Part shown: piece after piece, positions 15,350 to 26,576 of the stretch
How positions within the stretch are numbered: the stretch's first letter is position 1
How the letters are laid out: each line of letters starts with the position of its first letter
Source of the DNA: Phaeodactylibacter sp.
GTDB taxonomy: Bacteria > Bacteroidota > Bacteroidia > Chitinophagales > Saprospiraceae
NCBI GenBank assembly: GCA_020436535.1
Contig: JAGQXQ010000109.1
Location: 1-43,138 of the forward strand
Direction: 5' to 3'
DNA length: 43,138 nucleotides
Notes under the pieces: generated by a model
Seen by the model: the letters and a program-made list of their open reading frames with translations, nothing else
Database searches by the model: none
Told to the model about the DNA's origin: nothing
Position numbers and translations under genes: made by a program

Positions 15350-16519
15350 ATGCCAAAACAATTTCGATTCATTTTATGGCTGGCCTTGCTGGCCTTTGGC
15401 TTCATGGCCGGAATTGCCTGGAAAGGCAAGGATACTACCCGCAATGACAAAGGGCAAACTGAAGCCGACACCGTCTTGTTCGCTGAAAAAGCGGTTCCGG
15501 CTAAAAACACTAATTTGCCTGCTGCACGGGATGCCAGCCCCGGCCACGGGCTGACGCCGGAAGAGCGGGCGACCATACAACTCTTTGAAGACGCGGCCCC
15601 TTCCGTTTGTTTTATTACTACCTCCAACGTCCGCATGGACTATTTCACCCGCGACGTATCGGAGATCCCCCGAGGCACCGGCTCCGGCTTTGTCTGGGAC
15701 CTGGGCGGCCATATTGTCACCAATTTTCACGTCATACAGGGAGCAGACCGGGCCACTGTTACATTGGCCGACCGTTCCACCTGGCCGGCCAAGCTGGTGG
15801 GGCAGGCGCCGGAAAAAGACCTCGCAGTCCTGCGCATCGATGCAGGCCGGGAATTGCTCCACCCCATTCCTATCGGCAGTTCTGAAGAGCTGCGCGTCGG
15901 ACAGTCCGTTTTCGCTATTGGAAATCCATTCGGACTGGACCAAACCCTCACCACCGGCATTGTCAGCGCCCTGGGCAGAGAGATACAATCCGTGGCCGGC
16001 ATCCCCATCCGGGATGTGATACAGACCGATGCGGCAATCAACCCCGGTAACTCCGGCGGGCCGCTGCTGGATTCCTCGGGCCGCCTTATCGGAGTGAATA
16101 CAGCCATCTATAGCCCCTCAGGTGCTTCGGCGGGTATTGGCTTTTCTATTCCGGTTGATGCAGTGAGCTGGATCGTTCCGGAACTGATCGAATACGGGGA
16201 GTTGCGGCGCCCTTCTCTTGGGATTGACCTGGCCCGCCCTCAAATCTTAGCTCGCCTGGGCCTGGAAGGTGCGCTCGTGACCGACGTTAGTAAAGGCGGC
16301 GCTGCAGAACGGGCCGGTATCCGGCCCACCACCCGGGACAACTATGGGTATATCAAACTGGGTGATATCATCATTGGACTTGGAAATACAACGATCAAAA
16401 ATAATAGTGACCTGATTCTGGCTCTGGAAAATTATGAGCCAGGCGATGTGGTTACCGTCCGCCTCCTTCGGGATGAGGAGCAATTGGAAGTCAGGCTGAA
16501 ACTTGACCCCGCAAGGTAA
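15350..16519 (+). CDS. HtrA/DegP-like serine protease with one PDZ domain
   Basis: A 389-residue envelope protease. One N-terminal helix (about 7-23) anchors it to or exports it across the inner membrane. The trypsin-like domain (about 75-285) has the triad His127 (TNFHVI), Asp157 (EKDLAVLRI) and Ser235 (NPGNSGGPLL), plus the GTGSGF start of the fold. One PDZ domain follows (about 290-385; PSLGIDLA, GALVTDVSKGGAAERAGI, GDIIIGLGNTTI). One PDZ and an N-terminal anchor resemble DegS and the plant/cyanobacterial Deg1 types more than two-PDZ DegP. It probably degrades misfolded periplasmic proteins or does regulatory cleavage; substrate unknown. Confidence 0.9.
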   Translation: MPKQFRFILWLALLAFGFMAGIAWKGKDTTRNDKGQTEADTVLFAEKAVPAKNTNLPAARDASPGHGLTPEERATIQLFEDAAPSVCFITTSNVRMDYFTRDVSEIPRGTGSGFVWDLGGHIVTNFHVIQGADRATVTLADRSTWPAKLVGQAPEKDLAVLRIDAGRELLHPIPIGSSEELRVGQSVFAIGNPFGLDQTLTTGIVSALGREIQSVAGIPIRDVIQTDAAINPGNSGGPLLDSSGRLIGVNTAIYSPSGASAGIGFSIPVDAVSWIVPELIEYGELRRPSLGIDLARPQILARLGLEGALVTDVSKGGAAERAGIRPTTRDNYGYIKLGDIIIGLGNTTIKNNSDLILALENYEPGDVVTVRLLRDEEQLEVRLKLDPAR

Positions 16520-16580: not shown

Positions 16581-16686
16581 TAATATTATTTTAAACCTAT
16601 TCCGAATATTCTTGTTTAGGCTTTAGATTTTGAAATGTTTTTCCGGAAAATGGTGTATATTGAATAGTTAATGTGATTTAAATCAC

Positions 16687-16716
16687 TTTGGCAATCAACA
16701 AAAACTATTACTTTTG
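16687..16716 (+). promoter_or_regulatory. Strong Bacteroidota promoter of the putative RNA
   Basis: TTTG at 16687-16690, an 18-bp spacer and TACTTTTG at 16709-16716 match the housekeeping promoter, with the same spacing as the PUR gene promoter. Transcription should begin near 16723. No substantial protein-coding frame follows before the terminator at 17004. Confidence 0.7.
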
Positions 16717-16722
16717 TACTAT

Positions 16723-17032
16723 TGAATGCCTACAGAAAGATGTGGGGCAATCTCAAAAAAAATTCTGAAAAAAGTGACCTTGGCTGAAAACTGCGTCAGA
16801 AAGAGTGAAAATTGAAAAGGCGAAAGCAAGCCTCAAAGCGAGGCTGGCAGACGTCAAATTTCAAGGGGAATGCAGTTGATTGACAGCCAGGGGAAACGAG
16901 ATTAAAGTGTTGATTGATAAAGAGTTAAAACCTCTGGCTGTCTCAACATTTTCAACGTAGAAAGGTTTTCATGATATGAATATGGGTTTTAGGTGTTTTT
17001 CTCGGGGAGCTATTTTTTAGCTCCCCTTTTTT
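16723..17032 (+). ncRNA. Unidentified structured RNA, about 310 nt
   Basis: A unit bounded by a good promoter and a strong intrinsic terminator. Stable helices are visible: GACAGCCAGGGG (16882-16893) with CCTCTGGCTGTC (16931-16942), 12 pairs including one G-U, extended after a 2-nt bulge by GTTGA/TCAAC (16875-16879 with 16943-16947); and AGCCTC/GAGGCT closing AAAGC near 16829-16845. I found no tmRNA tag, no RNase P GAGGAAAGTCC motif and no SRP core, so it is not one of those. A divergent 6S RNA is possible. Coding alternatives are weak: a 15-codon frame from ATG 16740, and a 61-codon frame (16778-16960) broken by a TGA at 16877. Confidence 0.5.
17004..17032 (+). terminator. Intrinsic terminator of the putative RNA
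   Basis: GGGGAGCTA (17004-17012) pairs perfectly with TAGCTCCCC (17018-17026) around a TTTTT loop, followed by six T (17027-17032). The nearest upstream stop codon of a protein gene is at 16519, so it most likely ends the separate RNA unit. Confidence 0.85.
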
Positions 17033-17406: not shown

Positions 17407-18036
17407 ATGTTAGAGTTGTCTTTTGCAGTACTGGCATCGTTGGTCACCCTAGTCAACCCAATGGGGGCAGTGCCTGTATTTCTGGCAATGACCCCACATC
17501 ACAGCAAAGCAGAACGCACCCATATTGCCCTGCAGACCAGTATTTATTTTGTGCTTATCTTATTGGCCTTCTTTTTCGCCGGCACCTTGATCCTGAGTTT
17601 TTTTGGCATCAGCCTCAATGCCATGCGTATTGCCGGCGGGCTGGTTATCCTGTCATCCGGTTATTCTCTGCTGAGCGGTAAATTTGCCGAAGGGCGGGCG
17701 ATCAGTAAAAAGGTTAAAGCGGAAGCATTGGTAAAAAACGATATTTCCTTTTCACCAATGGCCATGCCGATGTTGTCCGGGCCGGGTTCTATTTCTTACC
17801 TCATTGGTATCTATTCCGTCCACCCGGCTTGGCCGGAACGCCTTACGGTAGCGGCAGTGGTCATTGTCACAGGGATGATCGTTTACCTCATCCTTCGCTC
17901 TGCTCCTTTTTTGTATAAACTCCTGGGGGAATCTGGCCTGAATGCCATGACCCGCATTATGGGCTTCCTGGTCATGGCCATCGGGATACAGTATATTATC
18001 ACCGGTATCGTAGATCTGGTGAAAGTGCTGGCGTGA
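17407..18036 (+). CDS. MarC-family integral membrane protein
   Basis: A 209-residue inner-membrane protein with six predicted helices. Family features are the N-terminal LVTLVNPMGAVPVFLAMTP, the central FFGISLNAMRIAGGLVIL, SFSPMAMPMLSGPGSISYLI (the usual PLxxGPG-type loop) and the C-terminal GLNAMTRIMGFLVMAIGIQY. MarC/NAAT proteins are annotated as neutral amino-acid transporters from an archaeal example, but most bacterial members have no known substrate; the E. coli MarC link to multidrug resistance was not upheld. Length matches the family. It stands alone and is convergent with the first giant gene. Confidence 0.9.
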   Translation: MLELSFAVLASLVTLVNPMGAVPVFLAMTPHHSKAERTHIALQTSIYFVLILLAFFFAGTLILSFFGISLNAMRIAGGLVILSSGYSLLSGKFAEGRAISKKVKAEALVKNDISFSPMAMPMLSGPGSISYLIGIYSVHPAWPERLTVAAVVIVTGMIVYLILRSAPFLYKLLGESGLNAMTRIMGFLVMAIGIQYIITGIVDLVKVLA

Positions 18037-18140: not shown

Positions 18141-21100
18141 TCACCTCATCAATACTACATCCCCTCTCACGACTTCGATGCTTCCATCTGTAAATTCAAC
18201 TTCGGCGTAGAATACAAAAACTGCCGGGTCCATGGGCATGCCGTCGAGGGAACCGTCCCAGCCCAGAGTAGGATCATTGGGCTGGAAATTTTCATTTTCA
18301 TACACCATATTGCCCCAACGATCAAAGATCCGAAAGAGGCGAATATTGACGACATCAGCGCCGGCAAAAAGAGTGAACCGGTCATTGCTTTGGTCTTCAT
18401 TGGGAGAGAAGGCGGTTGGTGCATAAACGGGATATTCCCGTACTACTCTGACCTCTATATTATCAGTGGCCGTGCAGCCTTCCCCATTACTAACCCAGAC
18501 AAAATAGGTTGTCGTTTTATCCGGGTTAATTGCCAATACAGGAACATTGAGGGGGTTAATGGTATCGTAAGGCCACCACCAAATGGTGTCATAGGTTGCC
18601 AGGCTGATATCCGCCACTAATGTATCCGCACTACCGAGCCGCAGGGTAATGTCCGGCCCCAGGTCCACGCTGAGGCTTTGGGCTTCCGGAATTTCCAGCG
18701 TAGTTTCCAGTTCGCAGCCATTGGCATCCTGCACACTCAGCTGATAAGTACCCGGAGGCAGGTTTTCAAAGTGGGTACGCCCGGAAAAACTGCCTCCTTC
18801 AATAGCAAAAAGATAAGGTTCCGAGCCCCCAAGAATGGTATCAATATCAATATAGCCATCGAGGCGGCCGGGGCAGGATGGAGGAAACGCCCTTGCCAGC
18901 AGGCTATCTACCGGGGCGGCCAACTCTATGGCTTGCACACTGTCGGCCGCCGTACAACCATTGCGGAGGTCCGTCACTAACAGGATATACCAACCCGGGG
19001 CGGCGGCAAGTGTCCGGTTGCTATCCACCGGGCCGGCCAATTGCCCGGCTTCTGTCGTCCAGGAATACTCTATAAAATCTCCAAATGAAGAGGCGGAACC
19101 ATCTAATGTTACCGTTCGAACGATACAATCCAGAGGTTGAGGGCCTGTGATGCTGGCCAAGGGAGGCACCGTGTCGGCCAGCACTGTGCGCTGAGCAGAG
19201 GCAAAGCAACCGTTCCTTTCATTCGTCACGATCAATTGATACATACCCGGCATAGTGGCTGTCGCCTGAAGGCTGCTATCCATCAGAGTATCCCCCGCTG
19301 GCCCGGCCCAGGTATTAGAAAAGTCAGCTCCGGAAGAAGAACCGCTGCCATCCAGTACCACCGACGTCCGAACACAGGTAATTTCCAATGGGGGCCCGAT
19401 GGTAACATCCGGTTGTTCGTAGTTCGCGCTTACGGCAAAGGCGAGGGTATCTTTACAACCGTTCCCCTGGTCTGTGACGACCAGGCGGTAGTTGCCCGTA
19501 CTGGACAGCGCCACCTGTGGCTCATTGCTGATGCTGCCAGCAGGAACCTTCCGCCAGTCATATACCAACCCACTACCCGTAGCGGATATCGAAGCGCCGG
19601 CATCCAGAAAGATGCTATCTGTCCGGCAGTCCAGTTGCAGGCCGGAGGAGTCTACCACGGCCAGAGGCGGCTGCCGGCCTTCTGCTATAACCACCGTATC
19701 GGCGCCGGTACAACCATTTTGCGGGTCCGTAACCTGAAGAACGTAACTTCCCGGGGCATCGGCAAGAGGAGTCAGGCTGTTTCCGTCCAGAACGATATTG
19801 CCGTCAAGGGTGGACCAGAGCACCTGCTGGCTGCCACTGGCCGTCATCCCCTGCCCCTGCAGGCGGACGTTGACGCGATTGCAGTTCAGCGTAGTGTCCG
19901 GGCCGGCATCGGCCAGAGGTGCATTCAGGTCCTGCCTGATCACCACCGTATCTGATGAAGTGCATTGATTCACCAGGTTGGTAACGGCCAGCAGGAAAGT
20001 ATCCGGCTGGTAAATGACCGGCGCCGGGCTATCAGCGCCTGTGATAGCACTGCCTCCTAACGCACTCCAGGCATAGGCCAGCGGTAAGCCGGATGGGCCG
20101 CCGCTCCCCTGCAATTGCAGGCTGTCCAGATTACAAAGCAGCGTACCGTCGGGCCCGGCATCGGCAACCGGCGGTTCATAATCTTCTCCCACCTCTACCA
20201 CTACGGAACTGACACAGCCGTTGCTGATGTCTTCTACCTCGAAGCGATACGCGCCCGGTGTAGCCACATCAACGATAAGCGCATTGGTGCAAGGCCCCTG
20301 AGGCTGGCCATTGGGCCCGAGGCGGCACCAGCGTCCGGTATAACCGGCCGGCGCCGGCAGTTCACCCACCAGCAGAACCACGGAAGCGCCACAGGTCAGG
20401 TTGGTATCCGATAGCATGGGAACCGGTGGCAACACGCCCTCTCTATCTACCCATACACTATCGGTGGCAAAACATCCGGTCGTGGTATCCGTAACGGTCA
20501 GAATGAATAAACCGGTGTCAATTACCGAAGGATTGAAAGAGTTGGCCCCGCCAATCACAGCGCCGGACGGCCCACTCCAGGAGTAAGTAATATCGGGGCC
20601 AAAATCTGAAGCGCTGCCATCGAGGGCGCGGGAAGGCATAGCGCAGGTAAGGGTCACCGGAGCCCCCGCCTCGGCGAAGGGCAAAAGCGTATCGATCGTT
20701 ACAATAGCCTGATCAGTGGCGCTACATCCTGTTATTCGGTCGGTGGCCAATAATTGGTAAGCGCCCGGAATAGATACCGGCAACACCGGCAAGGTATCCT
20801 GGATCCGGGCATTTCCATTTTCGTCTATCCATTGGTAGGATAGTCGGGAGTTGGGAATAGCAGCGCCGCCAAGAGTAACCTCCGGCACAGCACAGTTGAG
20901 AATCTGATCGGGCCCGGCATCCACAACCGGTGTCACGATATTCTCGCGAACCATCACACTGAGTACTTTGGAAAATCCCAGTGTATCGGTGGCCGTGACT
21001 GTATACAGGCCGGGCGCTCCGGCAAGAACCTGCAGAGAATCAGTATTGGTAAGTATCAGGCCATTCTGCGTAGACCATTGTAAGGTACAACCGATGCAAG

Positions 21101-24100
21101 GCTCACAGAAAGCGGCCGTAATGGGCACTGTATCCACCCGACAGGTCAGGCTGTCTACAGGCCCTATCTCTAAACAAGGAATACAGGATTGAACCATGAC
21201 TTCCACATTGCGGAAGGTGGTACAGCTGTTAGCTATATTGACTACGGTGAGGGTCAGCACGCCACTAGTGTCTACCAGTACCGCAGAACTATCCCGGTTG
21301 CCAATGATATGATCTCCTACCCAGTTGTAAGAATAGGGTTGCCCGGGCGGATCTACGAAAGCCTGCATCCAAAAGCTGTCCTGCAGGCAGGGAATGACCC
21401 GGCTCCCAAAGGTGATATCCGGCAGGTCGGCGCTGCGTTCAATCACTACAATATCTTCATCGGTACAGCCCGTCAGGCTGTCAATGACGGCCAGGAAATA
21501 GGTTCCATCGTCATTAATTTCCACCGTGAGGCTTGAGATGTTGAAAAAATCATCATCCAGCTTGGTCCAAACGTACCCTATACCCGGCCCCTGCGTGGAG
21601 CCGCCCGCATTCAGGATAGCCGTTGGTTCATCACAGGTGAGGGTATCGGAAGGGCCGGCATCGGCCAGAGGAGGCGTATCATTAGTAACCACATTGATGG
21701 AGGCGGTATCGCTCAGCCCAACTATTGTATTGGTGACAATCAATGTATACAAGCCGCTGCAGCGCACTTCCAATTCAGGAGTTCCCTGCCCGCTGATGAT
21801 ACAACTGGCGCCCGGTTCCGTCCATTGGTAAGTGATAAAACTGCCGGAGGTAGAGGCCGTGGCGTCGATCGCCACGGAAGTGATAGCGCAGGTAAGGGTG
21901 TCCGGGTTGGCAATAAGGGCATCGGGCGTGCAGTCGAGCACCACGATTACACTGGCGGTATCCGCACAATCCTGAGCGGCATTGGTGGCAATCAGCGTAT
22001 ACAGCCCGGCCGTATCCACCAAAGGGGTAAGCGTGTTAAAACTCACCGGCTGCCCTTCAAAAAACCATTGGAAGAGGGTCCCCCCGGAAGCAGAGGCATC
22101 GATGACAACGGTTCCATCCAGGCAAGATAATTCCAGGCTATCCGGTAACAGTACGGCCGGCAGCAGGCTATCCCTGCTTACTGCTACGCTGTCTACCCCT
22201 ACACAACCACTGGCTGTATTGGTGACACGGAGGTAATAGATTCCCGAGCAATCGACCAACATTCGGCTACTATCTGCCGGAAAGAGCAGGCAGGGGCCGC
22301 TCCATTGGTATTCGAGAGGGGCGCCGGTATCCGAAGAAGAACCGTCCAGCACCGCCTGAGGGAAAGCACAGTTGAGTTCCTGATCTGCGCCGGCTTCTAC
22401 ATTGGGCGGTTGGTTGTCTTCAAAAACGGTAGTAGAAGAAGTTGCCTCACAACCATTATTCGTATTGCGGACAACCAGCTGATAAATGCCCGGTTGGCTG
22501 GCCAGAACAAATCGGCCATCCGCCGGGCCGGCTATCTGGCCGTTATCTGTCGTCCAGCTATAGCTAAAACCTGGCCCGGTGGAAGTCTCGAAACCTCCGA
22601 TCTCGACTACCGTGCTGTCACAGGTCAATACATCCACCTCCCCGGCAACGGACACCGGGCTTATGGTATCTATTCCGATAGTGGCGGTTGCCGTTGCCAG
22701 GCAAGTGTTTACCGTATCGCGAACCGTCAGGGTGTACTGCCCGGGCAGATTGATGTCTGGGTTTAGGGTAGTAACATCGCCCAGCAGGCCCGGCCCGGCC
22801 CATTCATAGGTAAAGCCTGGCCCCTGGCTGGAAGCACTGCCATCAAGGGTGAGTTGCAGGCTGTCGCAGGTCAGGGTATAGGGCCCCCCGACAGCAGCCG
22901 TGGGCGTATCTTCATTCTGGCTTACTTCAACGCTATCTGTAGTAATACAGCCGTTGCCGGTATCTCTAATGGTAAAAAAATAGGTACCCGGACAATCAGC
23001 TCGGCCAATAATACTATCCTGGCCGGACACAACGCAGGGGCCACTCCACTGGTAGGTGTAGTTACCACCGGTATCAGACCCTGTACCATCCAGTGTTACT
23101 TCCGTAATCGAGCAGTTGAGCTCCGAGCTGGCCGCTATCACTGCAACCGGCCCCAAAAAATCCATGGGTACAAAGGCTTCCGAGGTATCGGAACAAAAAG
23201 TCAACGTATCCAGGACGACAAGCTGGTAGACGCCCGAGGCGTTTACCCGGATGGTGGGCCCGGTGGAATCCCCAATAATGAAACCATCGGTGGTGTACCA
23301 TTCATAAACAATATTCGGGCCAGAGCTGGAGGCAAAGGCATCGAGCGTCAGCTGGGTAGAATCGCAGTTGAGCGTGTCTACCGAGCCGATCACGGCCATC
23401 ACCTGCACCGAGGAATCTTGAACGAGCACCGAGGTGGAATCCCGGCAGCCGGTATTGTCATTGATGACCACCAGCTCATAGCGCCCACCGGCGTCCACCA
23501 CTGGAGTGAGCGTATTGATACCTGAACTAAACTGCCCGCCTTCCAGGGCATTCCAGAAAAAGGAATAACCCGGCCCGTTGTCGGAAGCACCGCCATCGAG
23601 GCTAAGGCTTGTCTCAGCGCAATTCAATAGTCCGGGCTGTGCAATGGCAACTGTCGGCGGAAGGGTATCTACAACTACTTCTACCAAAGAGGTATCGATG
23701 CATCCATTGTCCCGATCCGTCACCACCAGCAAATAGAGGCCTGGCTCTGTAACTATTGGCGTAAGGGTATTACCCCCAACCGGATCAACCCCCGCCACGG
23801 CTATCCAGTCGTAGTCAAAATTACCATTGCCGGAAGAATTGGTTCCGTCCAGGGTGACGGTGGTGCTGTCACATGTCAGTAGCCGATCCGGCCCACTATC
23901 TGAAATGGGCGCCATCGTATCCTGAGTAATGGTGACGAATGCCGTGTCTGCACAAAAAGTAACCGTATCCTTAACGATGAGCTGATAGGCGCCGGGCGCA
24001 TTTACCTCAACCGTCGTTCCAACCGAGTCCGCCGTGAAATGCCCGTCCGGGCTCGACCAGCAGTAGAGGAGATTCGGAGCTATAGTTGAAGCCGAACCAT

Positions 24101-26576
24101 CGAGAGTAAGCGTGTCCAGGGCACAGGTAAGCACTCCGCTGCTTCCTGCATTTGCCACTACTACATTGACGTTTTCCTCCACAACTACCGAGGCGGAATC
24201 CCGACAGCCATTGACGGCATTTTCCACCAATAGCTGATACGTGCCGGGGGCATCTACCACTGGCATGAGACTATCCGCTCCGCTGCTGATGTTCCCTCCA
24301 TTTCCTGCTTGCCAGTTGAGGAGCGGGGCAAGGCCAGCGTTGAGGATGCTGGCCTCTAATTGCAGTGCGGTTTGTGAACAATCCAGCACTTCAGGTGCTG
24401 CAATGCTCACGGCCGGTGAAAGGGTATCATAAGTGACCGCTACAAAGGCTGAGTCTGAACAACCGTTATCTATATTGGTAACTAACAGGCGGTAATTTCC
24501 AGCCTGAGTAATAACCGGAATGAGCGTAGTGGCTTGCTGAGGTACAGCACCATTAGTGGCTCGCCAGTCGTATTCAAAACCCTGGCCCACAGAAGAACCG
24601 GCGCCGCTGAGCGTTAGGCTTGTCCGGGTGCAGTTTAAAGTCGTATCCGGCCCGGTTACGGCAACGGGCGACTGCTCGTCCAGGCTGATGAGCACCGTTG
24701 CCGTATCGCGGCAGCCGTTGCCGGCATTGGTAACGATAAGTTCGTAGAGGCCGGCTGCATCCACTAAGGCTGTCGGGCCGGCTGTACTTCCGGAGAAGTT
24801 ACCGGTGGTACTGCTCCAACTGTATTGGAATTCAGGGCCGGCCGAGGTGTTTGGGCCTCCAATAGAAAGCTGGCTGCTATCACAGGTCAGTGTGTCTGTC
24901 ATTCCGGCATCGGCTCGGGGTGGAATGGTATCGGCTACTACCAAAACAGTATCCCGGCTAAGACACTGCACCTCATTTTGACTTTGTTCTACCTCCAGGA
25001 AATAGGTTCCGGAAAAGCTCACAGCCAGGCTGGGGCTATTGCCAATAATAACGTCATTAACGTCCAGCCAGTTATAGGTAATACTTCCTGCCGGGCTCGA
25101 GGCGCTGCCATCGAGGGTAACCAACGGATCGCTACAGGTTAGGGTATCTGGTGGAGCAATGGCCGCCGTCACATCCAGTACCTGAAGGTTCACATTGACA
25201 ATGCTATCGCATCCCTGCGAAGAGGCCAGCGTGATGGAATAATTTCCACCGGCCGTCAGTATACTATCGCCCACTGCAAAGCTCTGCCCCAGACAAAGGA
25301 CCACCGAAGTATCTACAAGAATGGGAGGAATGACCGTTAAGTTCAGGCTGATTATACTATCGCAAGAACCGGCAGACAGAAGGGTGTCGGTATACACACC
25401 GGTAGCCGTATAGGCTATTGTTCCCACTACAACCGAATCTCCCTGACAGATAGTATCCATCAGGTTGGTGTACTCTAAAGGGATGACCAGCAGGTCGTAA
25501 TGTACAATACTGTCACAACCGGCATAACCCGATAAATGGATATCGTAACTTCCGGTGGCTGTAAGCACGCTATCCCCTACCATTACAGAATCTCCCTCGC
25601 AGATGGATCCGGCCAGGAAGGTGGTGTCCGGCGGGGCGACAATGCGAACCCACAGGCAACTATCGGTAATCTCCCCGCAGAAAAGAGGCTCCAGCCCGAT
25701 GAGGTTGCGCCGCAGGCTGTCGATCGTTAACACGGCATCCGGAGCGGGGAAGCTGTCATAATCAATTCGTTTGTAAGACAGGCCGCAGACCTGGTACAGC
25801 CCGGGAGCAAAGCCGGTGAGATCGACAGTGGAATCGTAGTCCAGCAGTATGTTTTCTTCTCCGATCAGGTAGGTATAGCCATACTCATTGGTATCGGGCG
25901 GGGTGCCGGTGTAATGGGGAGGCAGGCTCAGAGCCAGGCTGGTATCGCTTTCGCAGGCGAGGATATCCTCAAAGGTATCGAGGTTGCCGGCAGCGGCGAA
26001 ACAGCAGTCCAGCCCGCGTTCGTCACAAAAGAGCAGGCGGAAACCCAGAATAGCCCCGATCTGTGCCGAGGGGTTGTTGTTGACCGTGATCGTCCAGGTT
26101 CCATTCACCGGCCCGGTGTTGAAGTCCTCCAAATTGCCCTGGTAGGGATGGTAAGTGCCTGTGAACAAACCTGAAATACCCCAATTATTGGGTTGATTGT
26201 TATCCCAGCCAGGCAAAAAGCCCGGGTCCGGCATAGGAACTACAGACTGCGGTACGAAAGTGATCCGCCAACGGGAAAAGTTGGTAAAAGCTACCGGATC
26301 ATCACTGTTAGGGCCGGTCAGGGTGACGGACTGCCCGGCGGGTGAAGTGACCGTCAGGACCATGTCCTCAACGTAGTTGTGCTTAAAATCTATCTCTATG
26401 CCACAAATGCCCTGTCCGGCATTGGCCAGGTCATCATTATAGATATTGAAGACTTCAAAATTGAAGGTGTGAAGACTATTGGGGTTGATGTACAAGGTGT
26501 CTTCCAGGCCGCAAGGTTGGCTCCAGGCCGAAGCGGCGCCTGCCAGGAATAGCCACAGGATTATGGTTCGCCTCAT
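18141..26576 (-). CDS. Giant modular adhesin-like protein with T9SS type-B sorting domain
   Basis: A 2811-residue surface protein. Order: signal peptide (MRRTIILWLFLAGAASAWSQ); a proprotein-convertase P-domain (about 25-190, with GICGIEIDF, DMVLTVTSPAG, GTWTITVNN); three copies of a CxGDSVxVGDS...GCDSIV repeat (about 320-470); about 25 Ig/PKD-like modules of roughly 83 residues (about 470-2555), each opening with L(T/N)C and closing near an NGC, so each may hold one disulfide; a SprB-like repeat (about 2557-2650); a short stalk; and the type-B/gliding-motility sorting domain from about 2712 (YAPTAFSPNEDQSNDRFTLF ... RIFDRWGNMVY ... GDVVLMR). The likely role is adhesion or surface-filament formation after T9SS export. 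Modules are diverged at DNA level, so this is an old array. ATG 26576 directly precedes the signal peptide. Confidence 0.9.
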   Translation of the reverse strand: MRRTIILWLFLAGAASAWSQPCGLEDTLYINPNSLHTFNFEVFNIYNDDLANAGQGICGIEIDFKHNYVEDMVLTVTSPAGQSVTLTGPNSDDPVAFTNFSRWRITFVPQSVVPMPDPGFLPGWDNNQPNNWGISGLFTGTYHPYQGNLEDFNTGPVNGTWTITVNNNPSAQIGAILGFRLLFCDERGLDCCFAAAGNLDTFEDILACESDTSLALSLPPHYTGTPPDTNEYGYTYLIGEENILLDYDSTVDLTGFAPGLYQVCGLSYKRIDYDSFPAPDAVLTIDSLRRNLIGLEPLFCGEITDSCLWVRIVAPPDTTFLAGSICEGDSVMVGDSVLTATGSYDIHLSGYAGCDSIVHYDLLVIPLEYTNLMDTICQGDSVVVGTIAYTATGVYTDTLLSAGSCDSIISLNLTVIPPILVDTSVVLCLGQSFAVGDSILTAGGNYSITLASSQGCDSIVNVNLQVLDVTAAIAPPDTLTCSDPLVTLDGSASSPAGSITYNWLDVNDVIIGNSPSLAVSFSGTYFLEVEQSQNEVQCLSRDTVLVVADTIPPRADAGMTDTLTCDSSQLSIGGPNTSAGPEFQYSWSSTTGNFSGSTAGPTALVDAAGLYELIVTNAGNGCRDTATVLISLDEQSPVAVTGPDTTLNCTRTSLTLSGAGSSVGQGFEYDWRATNGAVPQQATTLIPVITQAGNYRLLVTNIDNGCSDSAFVAVTYDTLSPAVSIAAPEVLDCSQTALQLEASILNAGLAPLLNWQAGNGGNISSGADSLMPVVDAPGTYQLLVENAVNGCRDSASVVVEENVNVVVANAGSSGVLTCALDTLTLDGSASTIAPNLLYCWSSPDGHFTADSVGTTVEVNAPGAYQLIVKDTVTFCADTAFVTITQDTMAPISDSGPDRLLTCDSTTVTLDGTNSSGNGNFDYDWIAVAGVDPVGGNTLTPIVTEPGLYLLVVTDRDNGCIDTSLVEVVVDTLPPTVAIAQPGLLNCAETSLSLDGGASDNGPGYSFFWNALEGGQFSSGINTLTPVVDAGGRYELVVINDNTGCRDSTSVLVQDSSVQVMAVIGSVDTLNCDSTQLTLDAFASSSGPNIVYEWYTTDGFIIGDSTGPTIRVNASGVYQLVVLDTLTFCSDTSEAFVPMDFLGPVAVIAASSELNCSITEVTLDGTGSDTGGNYTYQWSGPCVVSGQDSIIGRADCPGTYFFTIRDTGNGCITTDSVEVSQNEDTPTAAVGGPYTLTCDSLQLTLDGSASSQGPGFTYEWAGPGLLGDVTTLNPDINLPGQYTLTVRDTVNTCLATATATIGIDTISPVSVAGEVDVLTCDSTVVEIGGFETSTGPGFSYSWTTDNGQIAGPADGRFVLASQPGIYQLVVRNTNNGCEATSSTTVFEDNQPPNVEAGADQELNCAFPQAVLDGSSSDTGAPLEYQWSGPCLLFPADSSRMLVDCSGIYYLRVTNTASGCVGVDSVAVSRDSLLPAVLLPDSLELSCLDGTVVIDASASGGTLFQWFFEGQPVSFNTLTPLVDTAGLYTLIATNAAQDCADTASVIVVLDCTPDALIANPDTLTCAITSVAIDATASTSGSFITYQWTEPGASCIISGQGTPELEVRCSGLYTLIVTNTIVGLSDTASINVVTNDTPPLADAGPSDTLTCDEPTAILNAGGSTQGPGIGYVWTKLDDDFFNISSLTVEINDDGTYFLAVIDSLTGCTDEDIVVIERSADLPDITFGSRVIPCLQDSFWMQAFVDPPGQPYSYNWVGDHIIGNRDSSAVLVDTSGVLTLTVVNIANSCTTFRNVEVMVQSCIPCLEIGPVDSLTCRVDTVPITAAFCEPCIGCTLQWSTQNGLILTNTDSLQVLAGAPGLYTVTATDTLGFSKVLSVMVRENIVTPVVDAGPDQILNCAVPEVTLGGAAIPNSRLSYQWIDENGNARIQDTLPVLPVSIPGAYQLLATDRITGCSATDQAIVTIDTLLPFAEAGAPVTLTCAMPSRALDGSASDFGPDITYSWSGPSGAVIGGANSFNPSVIDTGLFILTVTDTTTGCFATDSVWVDREGVLPPVPMLSDTNLTCGASVVLLVGELPAPAGYTGRWCRLGPNGQPQGPCTNALIVDVATPGAYRFEVEDISNGCVSSVVVEVGEDYEPPVADAGPDGTLLCNLDSLQLQGSGGPSGLPLAYAWSALGGSAITGADSPAPVIYQPDTFLLAVTNLVNQCTSSDTVVIRQDLNAPLADAGPDTTLNCNRVNVRLQGQGMTASGSQQVLWSTLDGNIVLDGNSLTPLADAPGSYVLQVTDPQNGCTGADTVVIAEGRQPPLAVVDSSGLQLDCRTDSIFLDAGASISATGSGLVYDWRKVPAGSISNEPQVALSSTGNYRLVVTDQGNGCKDTLAFAVSANYEQPDVTIGPPLEITCVRTSVVLDGSGSSSGADFSNTWAGPAGDTLMDSSLQATATMPGMYQLIVTNERNGCFASAQRTVLADTVPPLASITGPQPLDCIVRTVTLDGSASSFGDFIEYSWTTEAGQLAGPVDSNRTLAAAPGWYILLVTDLRNGCTAADSVQAIELAAPVDSLLARAFPPSCPGRLDGYIDIDTILGGSEPYLFAIEGGSFSGRTHFENLPPGTYQLSVQDANGCELETTLEIPEAQSLSVDLGPDITLRLGSADTLVADISLATYDTIWWWPYDTINPLNVPVLAINPDKTTTYFVWVSNGEGCTATDNIEVRVVREYPVYAPTAFSPNEDQSNDRFTLFAGADVVNIRLFRIFDRWGNMVYENENFQPNDPTLGWDGSLDGMPMDPAVFVFYAEVEFTDGSIEVVRGDVVLMR

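Follow-up and report, generated by a model that had tools for sequence, protein, structure and literature searches.

A multicopy small RNA family of the Saprospiraceae with an invariant core beside its terminator, probably a stress-response regulator

The window, as we call the whole 43,138-nucleotide stretch of Phaeodactylibacter sp. DNA that was analysed, contains a candidate RNA region (16672–17032) flanked by an htrA/degP-like protease gene on its 5' side and by marC on its 3' side. This gene order recurs among relatives: by tblastn, 23 loci have an htrA homologue upstream of a family RNA and on the same strand, as in the window, and about 15 loci have marC downstream. The features to which we refer below are as follows.

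15350–16519, + strand: htrA/degP-like protease gene (Trypsin_2 and PDZ, Pfam), the conserved upstream neighbour
16672–16687, no strand assigned: CRP/FNR-type palindrome TGTGATTTAAATCACT in a class II-like position, at about −43 relative to the predicted start
16687–16716, + strand: sigma-A-type (Bacteroidota) promoter read from the sequence, with TTTG at 16687–16690, an 18-nt spacer and TACTTTTG at 16709–16716
16723–17032, + strand: predicted long transcript of about 310 nt, delimited by promoter and terminator
16774–16797, + strand: predicted ECF-sigma-type promoter, GTGAC-N15-CGTC, inside the long transcript, with an RNA of about 228 nt expected from it
16862–16872, + strand: CAAGGGGAATG, at the base of the long-form hairpin and invariant across nine aligned sequences
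16875–16947, + strand: covarying hairpin, with arms 16875–16893 and 16931–16947
16965–16979, + strand: core extension GTTTTCATGATATGA, common to many, not all, family members
16980–16997, + strand: invariant family core ATATGGGTTTTAGGTGTT, an 18-mer found by genome searches, putatively a seed or protein site
17004–17032, + strand: Rho-independent terminator, with a 9-bp stem (17004–17026) and six T
17407–18036, + strand: marC-family gene (Pfam), the downstream neighbour

Further along, the minus strand (18141–26576) encodes an exported, repeat-rich protein of 2811 amino acids, whose C-terminal region appears by eye to be gliding-motility/T9SS-like.

A first-pass annotation of this DNA had described a full promoter (TTTG, 18 bp, TACTTTTG), which is borne out in the sequence, and the −7 box is retained in the relatives G001, G002, G003 and G144. 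The palindrome TGTGA-N6-TCAC[A/T] stands at a fixed 29–30 nt from TAnnTTTG at 11 of 102 family sites, corresponding to eight independent loci, while the same spaced pair was found in none of 4300 control stretches; this spacing places the predicted palindrome at a CRP/FNR-type activator position. That annotation recognised a single promoter and missed a second promoter-like element within the proposed RNA (16774–16797), and we therefore expect two transcripts in the window. The second element conforms to GT[GT]AC-N15/16-[CA]GTC, which looks like an ECF-sigma promoter and lies at most 330 nt upstream of 71 of the 102 cores, against 1.1% of control stretches, so that an alternative-sigma promoter, as in the sigma-E type of stress sRNA, is present at the level of sequence at these 71 sites. 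The element also occurs 20–180 nt before the starts of mscL and of genes for DUF1508 (yegP-like), BON-LysM, thioredoxin, RsbW-like ATPase (HATPase) and a conserved exported protein, some of them orthologous genes in two species. Because the strict pattern, counted across whole genomes, only modestly exceeds a reversed control, individual regulon members are tentative. In Neolewinella (loci L085–L123), a further conserved block, TTAACnnTTnnnTAACGT, often lies upstream of the GTTAC/CGTC element and is possibly another promoter or operator.

Folding predicted the whole RNA to be more stable than its shuffles (MFE z = −4.7). The interrupted long helix proposed earlier is real: in nine long-form sequences, 11 of the 16 hairpin pairs change on both sides yet still pair in at least one sequence, and with the terminator included, compensatory change is seen in 12 of 25 tested pairs. 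Across hairpin and terminator, 28 cells change on both sides; shuffles gave 8.9 and slid controls no more than 14, and the covariation score was attained by none of 500 shuffles. A second hairpin near 16820–16845, also in the first-pass annotation, is predicted by folding and shows no conservation among the aligned relatives. We rejected a pairing between AGGGGAAU and the core suggested by RNAalifold, which rests on invariant and G–U pairs only.

The region is conserved in relatives, contrary to the absence named beforehand as refuting an RNA gene. BLASTN matched it in 21 of 100 relatives. What these share is the 3' end, whose identity is close to 100% even between genera; several genomes carry it as tandem repeats on one strand. 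The feature first annotated is real and larger than described, but its most conserved part, the 18-mer at 16980–16997, and its membership of a multicopy family had been overlooked. With up to one mismatch, the core is found in 56 of 298 family genomes, representing 28 of 112 genera, and the control, a reversed pattern, matches in only a few genomes; one-mismatch core sites are mostly chance and were set aside. In the GTDB genome set, a 20-base version of the core matches 63 stretches exactly, where by our estimate about 0.5 would be expected by chance, and nearly all of these lie on contigs labelled Saprospiraceae, Lewinella, Neolewinella, Phaeodactylibacter or similar. The WWGGG variant of the core was detected in 67 of 396 genomes of the order, almost all of Saprospiraceae, the controls for these searches matching seldom or never, and in a class-wide sample core matches outside this family were not above control.

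A hairpin with a T run was scored after 102 of the 104 unique exact cores and at 6.7% of control positions, and 84 distinct stems are represented among the cores. The 9-bp terminator stem with six T that had been annotated is genuine, its position being conserved while stems change. The two unscored cores are L073, where a hairpin is visible by eye, and L134, in a Proteobacteria MAG; the latter, the single match with that label, is without a terminator and probably due to chance. Invariance of the core is partly circular, since these sites were chosen by the exact core; the BLASTN search used more than the core alone, and when sites were anchored on the upstream TTTTCATGA motif, the core followed in 55 of 64. 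Core and terminator are conserved, and the remainder of the RNA diverges. Most relatives have the short form alone, with a predicted length of 75–210 nt (median 127). Sites hold up to six copies, often in tandem, and some arrays contain diverged copies; only one copy was found in the window's own genome, which is 81% complete. In the arrays L062, L063, L064 and L012, copies recur with a period of 83–90 nt and short internal T runs, and they look co-transcribed because this period is too short for separate promoters.

The module also occurs behind protein-coding genes. Near-complement searches revealed a sister form, GTTAATAGGGTTTTAGGTGTT plus terminator, in nine of ten genomes, and this sister subfamily (AATAGGGTTTTAGGTGTT plus terminator) lies in hsp20 3' UTRs, 38–103 nt after the hsp20 stop codon in six genomes (Pfam HSP20), a placement confirmed in more genera by an order-wide search. 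In G031, the core itself is directly behind an HtrA/PDZ gene. Among 23 viral contigs with the motif, core plus terminator is present in at least seven (L494, L501, L505, L510, L512, L514, L515), several copies on phage contigs lying 4–21 nt past a stop codon, and possible use of the host RNA module by phages is suggested by these sequences. One further viral match corresponds to the Lewinella sp. W8 copy.

The family, its conservation, the promoter-like elements, the terminators, the synteny and the long-form helix are all read directly from sequence, and from them we conclude that the stretch is one copy of a small RNA family that is probably a stress-response regulator, because of the invariant core at the terminator, the linkage to an envelope-stress protease, the tandem arrays and the viral copies. 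We consider it somewhat probable that these are stress-induced, trans-acting sRNAs, transcribed as predicted, with the core as their seed. In the window, the sigma-A promoter with its CRP/FNR-type site would yield an RNA of about 310 nt and the internal ECF-sigma-type promoter one of about 228 nt, both ending at 17032; relatives would make mostly the short form, in some cases from tandem or co-transcribed copies. The functional element common to all would be the 3' module, consisting of the invariant AUAUGGGUUUUAGGUGUU and the terminator hairpin. By pairing at the start codon or shortly upstream of it, the core would lower the translation of mRNAs, mainly those for exported proteins, under envelope or osmotic stress. 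An sRNA of this kind may also be released from hsp20 and htrA mRNAs, whose 3' UTRs contain the module. In favour of this sRNA reading we count the conserved core and terminator in an otherwise diverging RNA, the tandem arrays of up to six, the stress-type promoter shared with mscL and other stress-type genes, the htrA neighbour, the 3' UTR copies and the complements at translation starts described next.

Complementarity between the core and translation starts gave mixed results. In 1.6 Mb of the genome G102, with 999 starts, perfect complements of at least 10 nt to the core region occurred 11 times between −60 and +10, compared with 3.9 ± 3.2 for shuffled seeds, of which 11 of 300 reached 11; no excess of such complements was seen away from starts. 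Across ten genomes, starts accounted for 16 of 60 near-complements, and the reversed pattern had 3 of 30 there (p = 0.056); within 35 nt of the start codon the counts were 12 and 1 (p = 0.03). Repeated AAAACCTAAAACCCAA-type sites on six contigs of G001 (C15, C32, C269, C316, C453, C595) inflate the near-complement count for that genome. Genomes with no standalone core had 5 of 30 near-complements at starts, not significantly different from the 16 of 60 in genomes with it; because start-site complements occur there too, A/C-rich starts explain part of the signal. Strong individual sites include an exact 16-nt complement ending 8 nt before an ATG in G003 and one of 15 nt at −25 in G102. The strongest duplex, of 18 bp in G002, involves the gene for a retropepsin-PDZ lipoprotein, which we rejected as a conserved target since the G001 orthologue has no comparable duplex. 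Start-site complements showed no SusC bias, and their enrichment is weak against controls; a search for the core as a Shine-Dalgarno mimic of 16S rRNA returned a sole pattern match, in a coding region. The predicted accessibility of the core was likewise not above that of shuffled sequence. Against the sRNA reading, we therefore count the non-significant near-complement control, the best target unconserved in its orthologue and a core that is not especially accessible. Given these results, pairing at translation starts is retained as the leading mechanism, which we hold to be moderately probable but unproven.

The main rival is a protein-binding 3' module, possible but in our judgement rather unlikely, in which the core would be a site for an RNA-binding protein (e.g. 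an RRM protein) and would pair with no mRNA. Tandem copies would then titrate the protein, and those in the 3' UTRs of mRNAs and in phage genes would bring it in so that 3' ends are stabilised or processed. The presence of one module in the 3' UTRs of hsp20, htrA and phage genes, the co-transcribed-looking arrays with their 83–90 nt period and internal T runs, the strict invariance of the core and the absence of a clear target signal all suit such a site, but standalone short RNAs with promoters of their own would be odd for a pure 3' UTR element, and the partner protein is hypothetical. It is improbable that the module is a specialised terminator or 3'-end element reused in many genes with no regulatory role: the core always adjoins a terminator and follows stop codons in phages, but intrinsic termination needs no 18-nt invariant tract, the dedicated promoters precede no ORF, the long-form helix covaries and tandem repeats would be redundant.

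The proposal that this is an independent non-coding RNA, new to Saprospiria, is supported by the conserved promoter, terminator, covarying helix and synteny, by the absence of a coding pattern and by the absence of an Rfam family. Rfam 15 gave no match at gathering thresholds in the whole window and, at E ≤ 10, only noise in the candidate RNA region; a tRNA/tmRNA search found none. A small protein gene is very improbable, for although a 14-codon frame begins in the core extension, invariance is uniform along the core, the frame enters the variable terminator and ends at differing places, and the TAGGG subfamily keeps the core with no ATG. The earlier suggestion of a divergent 6S RNA (RF00013) regulating RNA polymerase, prompted by size and the long interrupted hairpin, is just as improbable: no 6S match appears even at E ≤ 10, the family is multicopy, its covarying hairpin departs from the 6S layout, and conservation lies in the 3' core instead of in a bulged hairpin. 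Searching texts for the core sequence, or for sRNAs in Saprospiraceae, brought up nothing relevant, including no Saprospiraceae sRNA paper by full-text search, and on the basis of these limited searches and Rfam 15 the family is previously undescribed.

Most of what is known about post-transcriptional control in Bacteroidota comes from Bacteroides and a small number of flavobacteria. Through its invariant core, predicted ECF-type stress regulon, conserved htrA linkage and hsp20 3' UTR and phage copies, this multicopy sRNA family offers a defined, testable way into how a major environmental family responds to envelope stress. The closest functional class is that of the enterobacterial sigma-E sRNAs. 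RybB, MicA and MicL, which are sigma-E dependent, and the 3' UTR-derived CpxQ depend on Hfq, a protein not known to occur in Bacteroidota. With these RNAs the family would share an envelope-stress type promoter, a link to a degP-like gene and possible release from stress-gene 3' UTRs, whereas a sequence relation is not shown and the Saprospiraceae targets are candidates only.

In behaviour, the closest are FopS/GibS of Bacteroides, RNAs of 65–70 nt with a 5'-end seed, sigma-ABfr promoters and a Bacteroidaceae range, which are bound by the RRM-1 protein RbpB and repress SusC-like mRNAs through start-codon pairing (PMC11697453). Both families are multicopy, paralogous Bacteroidota sRNAs (one to six copies per site in relatives of the window) with a shared conserved stretch, terminator ends, a presence in a phage, and pairing at translation starts that is either proposed or demonstrated. 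The latter differ in that the core abuts the 3' terminator of longer predicted RNAs, the ECF-type promoter dominates and arrays are common. The Rfp sRNAs of Flavobacterium psychrophilum, some of which are under alternative sigma motifs, such as Rfp11 under SM6 (PMC9723704), are similar as Bacteroidota sRNAs with such motifs; evidence of shared sequence is absent, the exact core being not above control outside Saprospiraceae in the class sample.

More speculatively, GGGUUUUAGGUGUU plus terminator may be a common currency in Saprospiraceae, issued as standalone sRNAs or released from hsp20/htrA 3' UTRs and phage mRNAs, with every copy in competition for a single target set or protein, so that phages would plug into or hijack a host stress-RNA network; we regard this as a tentative and rather doubtful idea. 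As a separate observation, three genomes of one genus (L165, L166, L167) carry, between GGAACA and TGTTCC arms and with no family terminator, a conserved AAAATGGGTTTTAGGTGTTTT followed by further AGGTGTTTT repeats, a stretch that may be a hairpin showing several partial cores.
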